From Desulfurellales bacterium (GTDB lineage Bacteria > Campylobacterota_A > Desulfurellia > Desulfurellales > Hippeaceae), in assembly GCA_027014115.1 (NCBI GenBank), contig JALWEJ010000015.1, positions 1-58,609 of the forward strand: a stretch of 58,609 bases of DNA, given 5' to 3'. The position numbers were made by a program, and so were the translations under genes. Of the stretch, positions 1,395 through 32,510 are shown one piece after another. The notes below the pieces were generated by a model. It did no database searches and was not told where the DNA came from. It saw only the letters and a program-made list of their open reading frames with translations. Numbering within the stretch: position 1 is the first letter of the stretch; every line of letters starts with the position of its first letter.

Positions 1395-2177
1395 ATGTCT
1401 TATTGCAATAAATCAAACCACGAAGTTGATATTGAAAATGGTGAGGTGTTGTACGACGACGGCAATCATAAATTTATATGGCTTGGGTGGGGTAAGCTTG
1501 AAGACGGCTTGATTCAGACAAACCAATATCTAATCATAGATAACAATAAAGGGACACTACTTGATCCCGGCGGTATACACATATTTCCGAAAGTTGTTTC
1601 AAATGTCACTAAATACATAGACTTGGAAGATATTGAATACATATTTTTCTCACATCAAGACCCTGATGTCAGCTCAGGTATTCCTATGTGGCTGTCGGTA
1701 ACCAATGCACAGGTTCACATATCAGAGCTTTGGGTCAGATTTCTGCCGCATTTCGGTATATCCGATTTATCAAGGATAACAGGCATACCAGACAAGGGCG
1801 GAAAGGTTGGTAATTATCAAATCATTCCCGCACATTTTATGCATTCCCCGGGTGAACACCTCTTGTACGATGAGCAGTCAAAAATACTGTTTAATACAGA
1901 TATAGGAGCTGCCGTTTTTTCTGATGAGAATAAATACCTGTTTGTGGATTCCGATAATTTCAAAGAGCATTTGAAACTCATGGAAGGTTTTCACAAAAGA
2001 TATATGGCATCCTCTAACACATGCAAATATTATGCCAACAGAGCAAAAAGCCTGAATGCAAAAATGATAGCTCCTCAGCACGGTGCTATTTTTAGAGATG
2101 AAGGGGTTAATATGTTTTTGGATTGGATTGGCTCTTTACAATGTGGAGCTGACATAATAAACGAGATAAGCGGGTAA
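1395..2177 (+). CDS. MBL-fold diiron protein, ODP-type oxygen sensor candidate
   Basis: This 260-residue protein has the metallo-beta-lactamase fold of the flavodiiron family without a flavodoxin domain. Visible metal ligands are H87, D89 and D91 ([10 protein letters not shown]), H150 (MHSPGEH), D169 (NTDIGA) and H229 (APQHGA). The normal second His after D91 is Val, as in ODP (oxygen-binding diiron protein) sensors known from Treponema denticola, where ODP binds oxygen and signals to a cytoplasmic chemoreceptor. The next gene, 4 bases downstream, encodes exactly such a soluble receptor, which supports a sensing role over an oxygen- or NO-reductase role. GGAGG sits 9 bases before the ATG. Family assignment is strong; the ligand is inferred. 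Confidence 0.8.
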
Positions 2178-2181
2178 TGTC

Positions 2182-3087
2182 ATGTTGTGGAAAAAGAAAG
2201 ATATAGAGGAAGTTCAAACAAAGGCAGCAAAACCAGCTCCAACACCTATTTCCGGCAATCAAAGAACCGCAAATGCCATTAAAACCCTTTCTATGGGTGT
2301 TATAAAAAGTTCATTTATGTCAACCGCAACAATAGAAAGTTTTAAAATTATTTCATACGATATAGAATTTTTAGAAGATCAGATGAAAACATTTTCGGCA
2401 TCTTTGGAGGAAATGGAAGGTAACCTAAAAGGCATGGCGGGAAATATTTCAAAGGTCAATACCGATTTTGATTCCTTTAATAACAACATAAGCAACATCT
2501 CAAATAAAGTGTCAGAAAGAAACGAACAGATAGAAAACAGAAAATCCGATATAAAAGAGTTTGTTGAAAATATAAAAGAACTTGCAAAAATATCTCAAGA
2601 TATAAATAAATCAACCGGAAACATTTCAGAAATAGCAAACCAAACAAACCTGCTTGCTCTAAATGCAGCAATAGAAGCAGCAAGAGTTGGAGAAAAAGGC
2701 AAAGGATTCGCTGTTGTTGCAGATGAAATCAAAAAACTTGCGACAAAGACGGATAATTTAACAGGGAGCATTCAGGATATACTCTATGATTTCAATACAA
2801 AATTAGACGCAACGGCTCAAAAAGTTGAGGATGTATATAGTTTTTTGGAAACACTCAGCAACGACTTCAATGAATTTACCAATATTTTCATAGATATCAA
2901 CAAAGATTCAAATGACATAGCAGAATCATTAAACGAAAACAGCTTGGCTATCAATGAACATGCGGATGTTATTGACGATTTAACAAAAAGAATTGTTAAC
3001 ATCTATGAGCTGTTAAGTAGAATCATAAAAATAGTAAACACTCTTCAGGATGCAAATGTTAAAATTGAGCAACTTATAAAAATCTGA
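2182..3087 (+). CDS. Soluble methyl-accepting chemotaxis-type receptor without sensor domain
   Basis: The 301-residue protein has no signal peptide or membrane segment. After a short charged, proline-containing N-terminus it is almost entirely predicted coiled coil. The conserved receptor hairpin tip lies at about residues 153-190 ([16 protein letters not shown], then [15 protein letters not shown]), which binds CheA/CheW in known receptors. There is no PAS, HAMP or other ligand-binding domain, so input must come from a partner. The ODP gene ends 4 bases upstream, making it the obvious candidate and implying translational coupling. The cytoplasmic domain is short, so the number of heptads and methylation sites may be reduced. 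No cheA or cheW lies in the window. Confidence 0.88.
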
Positions 3088-3095
3088 ACTCCTAT

Positions 3096-3125
3096 AAGGA
3101 GGTTGCACACCTCCTTTATCTTTTT
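3096..3125 (+). terminator. Intrinsic terminator after the chemoreceptor
   Basis: AAGGAGGT (3096-3103) pairs with ACCTCCTT (3109-3116) around a 5-base loop, followed by a T-rich run. The stem happens to contain a Shine-Dalgarno-like GGAGG, but no start codon follows it within reach. It separates the chemoreceptor pair from the transporter operon. Confidence 0.7.
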
Positions 3126-19670: not shown

Positions 19671-20654
19671 TTAAGTAATAATGTCACATAACTTTACAGC
19701 CTTGTTATTGCCTTTTTTTCCAAGTTTAAAAGAAAACTTTTTAACATCATTCACTCTACATGTCAGTTTTTTACTCACTTTGGAATCTAAAGCAACAATG
19801 TCGCCGGCTTTTAGATTTAAAAATTCCTGAACGCTCATTCTTCTTTTTCCAAGTTCAAAATGCATAAGAACAGATACACTCTTTAAAACCCTTATTATAT
19901 CCTCAGACCTGTCCTCAGCCATCCTTTTTGTTCTTGAGAGTATATCGTGTGTGCCAATTTTGTTTAAAATAGGCTCAACCACTATAACAGGCAAACACCA
20001 GTTGATAATGCCGCTTATTTCTCCCAACTTTACTTCAAAAACAACCAAAACAACAAGTTCCGATGGTGCAACAATCTGCACAACATTAGGGCTTGATTCT
20101 TGCTCAATTACATTAAACGATATATTCATAATAGGATTCCATGCAATACGCAGCTCAGCCATAGCCTGATTTACAACATCAAGCAAAATACTTTGCTCAA
20201 TCTCAGTAAAAGCCCTATCTATATTTGAAACTTCTCCCGCACCCCCGAGCAGTCTATCAACAAAAGAAAAACCTATTTCGGGCTCAAGTGAAAAGACACC
20301 GCTTCCATCAAGGGGTGAAAGACTTATAACATTAAAACTTACATTACTCGAAAGTGACAAAACAAATTCGGCATAGGTCATCTGATCTACACTAATAACC
20401 TCCATCTCAACTATAGACCTCAAAAAGGCAGATAGCTTAGAGGAAAAGTTACGCGCAAACTTATCATGAAGATTCTTTATTGCTCTAATCTGTTCTTTTG
20501 AAACCTTATCGGGTCTTTTGAAATCATAAAGAGAGGCCTTTTTACTTTTTAGCTCTCTTTCACTCTCTATCGCCTCTTCTTTTACCTCTACGTCATCTTG
20601 GTCTATATTGCTTAATAGAGCATCAATCTCTTCTTGGGAGAGTATCTCAGGCAT
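19671..20654 (-). CDS. fliM: Flagellar motor switch protein FliM
   Basis: FliM forms the middle layer of the C-ring and binds phosphorylated CheY to switch rotation. The N-terminal CheY-binding peptide LSQEEIDALLSNI is intact. The central domain contains the FliM signature region LLGGAGEVSNIDRAFTEIE and the C-terminus a SpoA domain (GKRRMSVQEFLNLKAGDIVALD). The length of 327 is normal. Its ATG overlaps the cheB stop (TAATG), so the two are coupled. Other flagellar genes are outside the window. Confidence 0.95.
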   Translation of the reverse strand: MPEILSQEEIDALLSNIDQDDVEVKEEAIESERELKSKKASLYDFKRPDKVSKEQIRAIKNLHDKFARNFSSKLSAFLRSIVEMEVISVDQMTYAEFVLSLSSNVSFNVISLSPLDGSGVFSLEPEIGFSFVDRLLGGAGEVSNIDRAFTEIEQSILLDVVNQAMAELRIAWNPIMNISFNVIEQESSPNVVQIVAPSELVVLVVFEVKLGEISGIINWCLPVIVVEPILNKIGTHDILSRTKRMAEDRSEDIIRVLKSVSVLMHFELGKRRMSVQEFLNLKAGDIVALDSKVSKKLTCRVNDVKKFSFKLGKKGNNKAVKLCDIIT

Positions 20655-21733
20655 TATCTACCCAAAACTATTTTAGATATATATTCTGAAATTTTATCAA
20701 GCGGTGCAATAAAGTCTGCTATACCGGATTCTGTTGGCTTTCTCGGCATACCCCAGACCACACAAGTATCCTTATCCTGAGCTATAATTGTACTGTTTGC
20801 CTTTTTAGCCTCTTGAAGACCTTTGAAACCATCATCACCCATACCTGTCATTATAACACACAATGCTTTACTGCCAAAATATTTGGCAACCGATGAAAAC
20901 ATAACATTGGCATTGGGTGTGTAAATTGTTTTCGGTTCACTGCTTATTTTAATACAGTATGCACCTTGTGAATTTTTATCAACCGTCATCTGTAAACCAC
21001 CTGGTGCAAGATATGCAACATTTGGCTGTAAAACCTCTTTATCCTCAGCCTCTTTGACTGTCAAAACTGAAACCTTGTCAAGGGACTTTGCAAAAACACC
21101 CGTAAATGTTTTTGGCATATGCTGAACTATCAATACAGGAACATTTAATTTTGGTAATTTCGCAAAGACCTTCTCCAACGATACAGGGCCACCCGTTGAG
21201 GCTGCTATTGCCACAAGTTTTATGTTCTGTTTTTCTAATTTTTTTGTTCTGCGGGGTACATCTTGAGGTTCTGACTCTGTTTTCTTTGCAGAGGTAGCAT
21301 GGGAAGATACACTTCTTCTTTCAATAGATCTTGCACCCTTTGCAGACATGATTTTTTCTATAAGGAGTTCTCTTGCCTCCTTAGAGGTTGTTTTAAAAGA
21401 TAAGACATCATTTTTCGATATATAATCAATAGCACCGAGCCTTAAAGCCTCAAGTGTTTCTTTTGCCCCATCTGTAGTCAGTGTGCTGACCATAATAACA
21501 GGTATAGGATTTTCTTTTGCTATCTGTTTTAGTGCTTCAAGTCCTGTCATCTTAGGCATTTCGATGTCCATCGTGATAACATCCGGTTTTAGAGATTTTG
21601 CTTTTTCAACAGCCTCCAGACCGTTTGCTGCTGTATCGATTACCTGAATCTTTCCAGACTCTTCCAAAATCCTTGTCAAATATTTTCTTGCTATTAATGA
21701 ATCATCCACTACCAAAACTTTAATCTTACCCAT
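20654..21733 (-). CDS. cheB: Chemotaxis response regulator protein-glutamate methylesterase CheB
   Basis: CheB removes methyl groups from chemoreceptors and deamidates them, providing adaptation. The receiver domain is intact (VVDDSLIARK, phosphorylation site D56 in VITMDIEMPKM, VSTLT, KND). A linker leads to the esterase domain with the catalytic triad: Ser in AIAASTGGP, His in VQHMP, Asp in MTGMGDDG. I use the ATG at 21733 (359 residues) because GAGG lies 8 bases before it; a GTG three codons upstream is in frame but overlaps that site. It heads the eleven-gene operon. Its likely targets include the two receptors in this window. Confidence 0.95.
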   Translation of the reverse strand: MGKIKVLVVDDSLIARKYLTRILEESGKIQVIDTAANGLEAVEKAKSLKPDVITMDIEMPKMTGLEALKQIAKENPIPVIMVSTLTTDGAKETLEALRLGAIDYISKNDVLSFKTTSKEARELLIEKIMSAKGARSIERRSVSSHATSAKKTESEPQDVPRRTKKLEKQNIKLVAIAASTGGPVSLEKVFAKLPKLNVPVLIVQHMPKTFTGVFAKSLDKVSVLTVKEAEDKEVLQPNVAYLAPGGLQMTVDKNSQGAYCIKISSEPKTIYTPNANVMFSSVAKYFGSKALCVIMTGMGDDGFKGLQEAKKANSTIIAQDKDTCVVWGMPRKPTESGIADFIAPLDKISEYISKIVLGR

Positions 21734-21753
21734 ATCAAACACCTCAAAAAATT

Positions 21754-30492: not shown

Positions 30493-32481
30493 TTATACTT
30501 TAAATCTTCCCACAAGCTGATTAACTCTGTCTGCTATGGAATTTAGCTGATCTGCCGATTTTGCCACCTCTCCAACAGCTTTTGCATTTTCTCTTGCGGC
30601 ATCTGCCACCTCTCTTATCTGCATGTCAATCTCTGCAACTGTTGATGAGAGTTCCTCCGTCGCTGCAGAAGTCGAATTAACCTCTTCTATGACACTGTTT
30701 GTTCTTTCAACAACCTGCTCTATATGTTCTTTGTCTTCTTGAGCCTTAATCTCTTCTGCAAGTATCATTTCGCTTGCCTGTTTTGTCTTATCAACAGCAG
30801 TTGTTGTATCGTTCTGCATCTTCCCAATCATAGACTTTATCTCTTCTGTTGCATGCTGTGTCTTTTCTGCAAGTTTTCTAACCTCATCTGCAACAACAGC
30901 AAAGCCGCGTCCTGCCTCACCGGCTCTTGCTGCCTCTATTGCAGCATTCAATGCAAGTAAATTTGTCTGGTCTGCTATTTCGTTAATAACACCTACTATT
31001 TGACCAATCTGTTTAGAGGCTTCACCGACTGTGTTTATCTGCTCCATTGCCTCTTTTGCAAGAAGGGCGTTCTGTCTCATTCTTTCAAGTCTTTCTTCTA
31101 TATCCCTAAGCATCTGCTGGTTGACATCTCCAACATCGGCAGCAAGCGTGTTGATGTTTTCTGTTGAGCGGGCAACACCATCTACAGCTTGAGATGTGTC
31201 ATTGACAGCATTGGCTATCTCCTGCATGCTTCTTGTTGTTTCTTCTGTTGTCGAGGACATCTGGTTGGAGGCTTGGAATAATCCGGAGGAATGCGTCTCA
31301 AGCTCTTTTACACTGCTTTTAACATCCTTAATCATAACCTGGGTTTTTTCTATAAACTTATTAAACCAATCGGCTAATTCTCCAAGTTCGTCTTTTGAGT
31401 TTATATTGATTCTTTGTGTTAAATCACCCTCTCCCTCAACAAGCTCTTTTGTTTCATTCGTCAATGTTTTTATGTTTGCAAGAACATATTTGAATATGGA
31501 GAATATCAACAGCATGATGGCTAATATTCCTACGGCAAACATGGATAAATAAATCATCAAATCCTTTAGAGATTGACCTATCTCTTTTGACATGTCGTTT
31601 AGTATGGTATCTTCCATAAAATCTTCTATATTCTTTAAAATATTAATTTTCTTAGTTATTGTTGCAAACCAGTATTTGGGGTCAACATTAAAACCGCCTG
31701 TAAGCATGTTGTCTATAGCAATCTTTCTCATTCTGTCCACTTCATCAATACTCTTTCCGTGAAAATGCATATTGTAGTAATCAAGAAACTTTTTATTTGC
31801 AGATATCTTGAACGAATGGAAATAGCTCTTCTGTTCTGCAATAAGCGTGATAAATTTTTCATACATACCTTTTCTGAATTTGCCCTGAGCAAATGTATTG
31901 GACAAAACTGCTCTTTCTATTCCAGCTCTTTCTTTTGAGAGTAGGAAATTTGTATATGCATTAAGCTCTTTGGATATGTTGGGGTCGTCTATGGCAAAAC
32001 CGATGGAACCTACTGCATTTAATAAATCCGCATTTATTTTTGTATAGTATTTAACCTCGTTTTGAACGGTTACGGATAGGGAGTCGACTTGACTTCTTAT
32101 GTTCTGGAGGCTGCTGAGCTGACTCATTGCGCTGTTGTAATATTTTGCAAATCTTGCGTTATAACCGTTTATATCCATATGGGATGCTGCTTCTTTGAGC
32201 TCTCTCAATTTTTTATCTGTCAGTAATCTTTGGTTTGCAAGTATAGATTTAAACTTTGCTCCCTTTGCACCAAGGTATCCTGCCGAAGCTCCTCTTTCTT
32301 TTTGAGTTTCATGAACAAGACTGCCTATCTTGACAGCAAGCAGTACAGCTTCTTTTGAATCTTTTATATTGCTGTATGTTTTAAACTTTTCATAAGATAA
32401 GAGTAATGCAAAAAAGAGTATAACCAAAGAAATAATAAAAATCACAAAAGAGAGCTTCTTTTTTAAACTCATATCCTTCAT
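30493..32481 (-). CDS. Transmembrane chemoreceptor with NIT (nitrate/nitrite-sensing) domain
   Basis: A receptor of about 662 residues. One membrane span follows the basic N-terminus ([19 protein letters not shown]) and a second lies near residues 312-335 ([17 protein letters not shown]). The periplasmic domain between them carries NIT hallmarks: [15 protein letters not shown] near residue 58 and [21 protein letters not shown] near 190. Members of this family are linked to nitrate and nitrite sensing. A HAMP domain follows ([18 protein letters not shown]), then a full signalling domain with tip [20 protein letters not shown] use the ATG at 32481 after GGGGG; a GTG two codons earlier overlaps it. 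It has no C-terminal CheR-binding pentapeptide. Confidence 0.87.
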
Positions 32482-32510
32482 AGCCACCCCCTAACTTAAG
32501 AATTCTAATT

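Follow-up and report, generated by a model that had tools for sequence, protein, structure and literature searches.

A di-iron ODP-family protein encoded with a sensorless cytoplasmic chemoreceptor in a Desulfurellales bacterium: a new example of a two-gene unit known from Treponema and other phyla

Coupling of the di-iron ODP proteins to signaling genes in eight phyla was reportedly found by Muok et al. in 2019, and the peroxo-diiron adduct of ODP is said to destabilize phospho-CheA. In Treponema denticola, the ODP protein TDE2498 acts as an oxygen sensor for chemotaxis, and the sensorless receptor TDE2496 modulates CheA; loss of ODP alters the order of CheA in the receptor array, and tomograms show no visible fixed place of ODP in that array (PMC7666581). 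The interaction between ODP and the receptor is direct and depends on conformation, according to a review of the original work (PMC6978683). According to the TREND paper (PMC7319448), ODP genes were seen in the original analysis to share operons with MCP genes, in two gene orders, to lie beside other signaling genes, and to be fused to signaling domains.

The window analyzed here, a stretch of 58,609 nucleotides from a Desulfurellales bacterium, is contig C15 of a genome that totals 1.72 Mb in 103 contigs. Among named genomes, those of Desulfurellales and Hippea are its closest relatives, which makes the host a Hippeaceae-type bacterium. The window contains an ODP gene and a receptor gene on the same (+) strand with 4 bases between them (Table 1), and this pair is a well-supported new example of the two-gene unit known from Treponema and other phyla. 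An earlier, sequence-only reading had interpreted the two open reading frames as an ODP-type sensor and a sensorless cytoplasmic receptor with a precedent in T. denticola; their positions and spacing are as it claimed, and the protein families, the metal ligands, and the conserved adjacency all agree with that core proposal. As far as features visible from sequence are concerned, the pair fits the T. denticola mechanism in every one. TDE2498 (6qnm and 6r9n) and TDE2496 belong to the same families as the proteins of the window, with the full ligand set in the ODP and a receptor that likewise has no sensor or membrane part, and Treponema loci (e.g., L110 and L140) likewise have the ODP gene followed by the receptor gene. 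The differences from T. denticola lie in the phylum and in the che operon, which contains CheV and CheX, and overall identity between the receptor of the window and those of the spirochaete loci is just ~20-25%. The solved ODPs of both T. denticola and T. maritima (6qrq and 6qwo) are 56% identical to the ODP protein, with a model TM of 0.90 for the latter, and Tm14 of T. maritima (3g67 and 3g6b) groups among the partner receptors in the tree described below. Desulfurella acetivorans (CP007051, L080) has an orthologous pair in the same order, with ODPs that are 64-66% identical, but its pair lies inside the che operon, whereas that of the window stands alone. The 5' neighbor of the pair is a membrane protein gene and the 3' neighbor is the first gene of an apparent peptide-type ABC transporter cluster, so neither flank points to another function. 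A promoter scan gave 13 candidates versus 8.6 ± 3.1 in shuffled sequences, and none is claimed.

Table 1. Positions of the ODP-receptor unit, its metal ligands and segments, and a related chemotaxis gene in the window.
Feature	Position	Strand	Basis or remark
ODP-family di-iron sensor protein, 260 aa	1395..2177	+	Pfam ODP PF19583, phmmer, AlphaFold model
Metal-ligand motif H87-Q-D89-P-D91	1653..1667	+	Asp89 replaces Glu of flavodiiron proteins
Metal ligand H150	1842..1844	+	Invariant in 79 linked ODPs
Metal ligand D169, by homology the bridging Asp	1899..1901	+	Invariant in 79 linked ODPs
Metal ligand H229	2079..2081	+	Invariant in 79 linked ODPs
Sensorless cytoplasmic chemoreceptor of 301 aa, no HAMP or membrane segment	2182..3087	+	MCPsignal PF00015 2.2e-32, hydropathy, predicted hairpin
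N-terminal segment, residues 31-52, candidate ODP contact	2272..2337	+	Conserved across phyla, 76 partner receptors
Putative adaptation site, residues 72-81, conserved E76-E77	2395..2424	+	AxEExxxT consensus in partner receptors
CheA/CheW-contact hairpin tip, residues 141-190	2602..2751	+	Top conservation of receptor; aligned to Tsr and T. maritima tips
Intrinsic-terminator-like hairpin and T-rich tail, end of two-gene unit	3096..3125	+	8-bp stem
CheB methylesterase, chemotaxis machinery of same cell	20654..21742	-	PF01339 6.4e-59

A search for the two families as neighbors across genomes, which the sequence-only reading had put forward as a check, bore out the pairing in eight phyla: Campylobacterota, Spirochaetota, Aquificota, Nitrospirota, Thermotogota, Synergistota, Methylomirabilota, and Thermodesulfobacteriota. 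Among 80 loci, which were the named loci best matching the ODP alignment, an MCP gene is found immediately downstream on the same strand in 78, mostly within ~20 bases; this adjacency is far beyond chance, although the loci were chosen by similarity to mostly receptor-linked ODPs and the resulting 98% should not be read as the frequency among ODPs at large. One exception, a locus from Nitrospirae (L086:2562-8000), shows a differing arrangement of CheA, CheW, two full-length MCPs, ODP, CheR, and CheB, in which both MCPs are upstream and CheR and CheB are downstream of the ODP gene, and the other of the 80 loci (L139) has no adjacent MCP. The pairwise distances of the ODPs and of their receptors correlate with r = 0.86 over 74 pairs, a value to which the shared ancestry of the genomes contributes in part, and the best of 1000 permutations reached 0.10. 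A tree that also included other MCPs puts the partner receptors to one side of a branch, and the 3g67 receptor (Tm14) falls among them; none of 500 shuffles was as low, but the support of the branch is weak (63) and the branches are long. The alignment of the receptors and the tree were made without L151, which has a 1115-aa ODP reading, and without L093 and L119, whose short reads reflect contig ends or late starts. The surroundings of the pair vary from genus to genus. In another genome (G034, L056:6062-7548), a distant ODP is followed by an unusually short receptor of 243 aa with hairpin insertions, possibly a diverged form of this two-gene unit.

Evidence for a link to the chemotaxis machinery comes from relatives in the same order. 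Three Desulfurella-like genomes have the gene order cheA-ODP-MCP-cheW inside the chemotaxis operon, which in D. acetivorans reads cheA-ODP-MCP-cheW-cheV-cheX-cheZ-like-cheY, and in Nitrospirota the pair lies beside che/MCP genes. The genome of the window has the same che operon minus the ODP-MCP pair, which sits away from it. Family searches of this genome, from which its content of che genes, other MCPs, and flavodiiron proteins was taken, found one each of CheA, CheW, CheV, and CheR, to which the CheB of the window can be added. Because one CheA was found, the signal of the receptor most likely goes to that kinase. The che operons of the order (L049:2632-3834 and L063:4156-5361) also have CheX adjoining a CheZ-like gene, whose Pfam match is weak in Desulfurella and absent in the genome of the window, and the two are possibly CheY phosphatases encoded together. 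A C-terminal response-regulator domain was recognized in the CheA of the genome of the window (L063:6891-9251), and no such match was obtained for that of Desulfurella.

With gene content, metal ligands, fold, receptor anatomy, conserved adjacency, and operon context in relatives established in this analysis, we are confident that the ODP binds iron and O2 and signals through the downstream receptor to CheA, as in T. denticola. Homology to the T. denticola proteins suggests the binding of iron and O2, the contact between ODP and the receptor, and the effect on CheA. The di-iron center, held in the metallo-beta-lactamase fold of ODP, would bind O2 and sense iron loading, and the cytoplasmic receptor encoded downstream would sense the ligation state, probably through its distal end, where ordinary receptors carry their membrane or sensor part and where we infer the docking site to be. 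The tip of the receptor would couple to the single CheA with CheW/CheV and thereby set the phosphorylation of CheY and swimming, while CheR/CheB would serve for adaptation of the receptor. The candidate direction of the response would be repulsion from oxygen.

The receptor is soluble and without an input domain, as the sequence-only reading had it, and amounts to the signaling hairpin alone. The MCP signaling domain is its sole domain, and domain search, hydropathy, and the predicted structure revealed no membrane segment, HAMP, or input domain; the maximum 19-residue hydropathy is 0.9, versus 2.0-3.2 in seven of the eight other MCPs of the genome. The predicted structure is one long hairpin composed of helices 25-168 and 170-300, with low confidence in the first 20 residues. 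Its relatives of solved structure are E. coli Tsr and two receptors of T. maritima, that of 2ch7 and the soluble receptor Tm14 (3g67/3g6b). Besides the tip, conservation among 76 partner receptors rises at residues 31-50, at residues 71-80, where an EE pair resembles a methylation site, and at residues 251-260. The first of these regions belongs to the N-terminal segment 31-52, which lies in the CheA-distal part of the hairpin and would be a natural candidate for the contact with ODP. The putative adaptation site at the second is assigned from the AxEExxxT consensus and from the presence of both CheR and CheB in the genome. The coiled coil, corresponding to residues 60-295 of the window receptor, is exactly 236 residues long in 61 of the 76 partner receptors.

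The proposal that the short length of the receptor implies a compact array geometry fared less well. The receptor is short mostly because the membrane, HAMP, and sensor parts are absent, its residues 77-260 align to residues 297-480 of Tsr with no net gap, and the length of the hairpin is constant in 61 of 76 partner receptors. Compared with the membrane MCPs of the same genome, its hairpin is probably shorter by about two heptads (~14 residues) per arm, a difference that rests on the after-tip lengths and on alignments with receptors of known structure and for which a heptad shift scan was ambiguous: the after-tip length is 137 residues, versus 150 in five of the eight other MCPs, and the N arm has a 14-residue gap relative to the membrane MCPs. 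One such membrane MCP, which carries a NIT (nitrate/nitrite sensing) domain, is encoded in the window itself (30493-32487, - strand); it aligns with no net gap to 6s18, a longer receptor, and has 28 residues in excess of Tsr. The partner family typically shows this difference in height, which as yet tells nothing of a compact array. Because its hairpin falls short of those of membrane receptors by two heptads per arm, the receptor might, with ODP, form a separate soluble array apart from the membrane array, which would be a variant compatible with the best explanation. The after-tip lengths, the gap in the N arm, and the extra residues of the membrane MCP relative to Tsr are in keeping with such an array, but one CheA and one CheW were found in the genome, slips by heptads make the alignment ambiguous, and cytoplasmic arrays were not seen in T. 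denticola (PMC7666581); we regard its existence as unlikely.

The assignment of the sensor protein itself is firm. Its match to Pfam ODP PF19583 has an E-value of 1.9e-69 and a score of 233.8 bits (cut-off, 27.2), its flavorubredoxin match is weak, and phmmer retrieved 6qnm from T. denticola (4e-92) and 6qrq from T. maritima (3e-91). The best PDB folds for its AlphaFold model (pLDDT 93) were ten ODP chains with TM of 0.82-0.90, after which flavodiiron proteins ranked with lower scores. All six ligand residues that the sequence-only reading had listed, H87, D89, D91, H150, D169, and H229, are present and are identical in 79 of 79 aligned receptor-linked ODPs; the invariance of the first three is partly built in because they form part of one of the two patterns with which the loci were searched for, while the latter three lie outside. 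Domain search also upheld the claimed lack of a flavodoxin domain, as neither a flavodoxin nor a rubredoxin domain was detected in this single-domain protein of 260 aa. The suggestion that NO might be sensed as well found no backing, the described ligands of ODP being Fe(II) and O2. Residues V92, S93, G95, A173, and F175 occupy positions special to receptor-linked proteins and are candidates for contact or switch positions. The unit might instead sense mainly iron, through Fe2+ loading, or another small ligand, and in the title of Muok et al. (2019) the T. denticola ODP is indeed termed an Fe(II) and oxygen sensor, but the ligand set and fold match those of 6r9n, an ODP crystallized with a peroxo-diiron site, which makes a role without oxygen quite improbable.

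Flavodiiron proteins such as ROO, FlRd, and FprA share the metallo-beta-lactamase fold and most metal ligands with the ODP protein, but they possess a flavodoxin domain and an HxExD motif; identification as a flavodiiron O2/NO reductase was rejected, as the ODP protein has neither the C-terminal flavodoxin domain nor the Glu ligand of HxExD. Even though anaerobes need detoxifying enzymes and the fold superfamily is common to both groups, it is extremely improbable that the ODP is an oxygen/NO reductase lying next to the receptor gene by chance, given that it lacks flavodoxin and rubredoxin domains, that its gene adjoins no flavin or rubredoxin partner gene, that Asp89 replaces the Glu of flavodiiron proteins (HQDPD versus HAEQD in the genome's own homolog), that the genome has, at another site next to a desulfoferrodoxin gene, a gene for a true flavodiiron protein of 431 aa with a flavodoxin domain, and that adjacency to a receptor in nearly all loci is unexpected for an enzyme. 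That flavodiiron gene (G000:C44, L042:3362-5569) also has a Fur-family regulator gene nearby, and the three likely constitute an oxygen-defense cluster.

The genome encodes further ODP proteins. One of 581 aa (G000:C67:1669-3414, L041) combines an N-terminal ODP domain with a C-terminal GGDEF domain and represents a sensor of the ODP type with output to c-di-GMP in the genome that carries the pair; ODP proteins of similar size are found in most genomes of the family. A second stand-alone ODP paralog of 248 aa (G000:C95:4013-4759, L040) is ~40% identical and keeps all the ligands, with no obvious signaling gene directly adjoining and with surroundings that vary among relatives. A more speculative scheme, which we think has only a small chance of being correct, is that the shorter ODP receptor forms a separate soluble array or inserts unusually into the taller membrane array and, together with an oxygen signal relayed to c-di-GMP by the ODP-GGDEF protein, brings about a coordinated swim-or-settle response.

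The pair alone leaves the current understanding of oxygen signaling by ODP through a receptor to CheA unchanged. The present analysis documents the ODP-receptor unit throughout Desulfurellales, and in Desulfurella the location of the pair within cheA-ODP-MCP-cheW connects it with the main chemotaxis kinase, independently of the genetics of T. denticola. The paired sequences also point to receptor segment 31-52 as a possible contact or switch, and signaling from a soluble sensor to a sensorless receptor could be studied with the proteins of cultivable relatives such as Desulfurella. For the organism itself, an anaerobic, Hippea-related cell, the ODP sensor and its receptor would provide a means to steer by oxygen.
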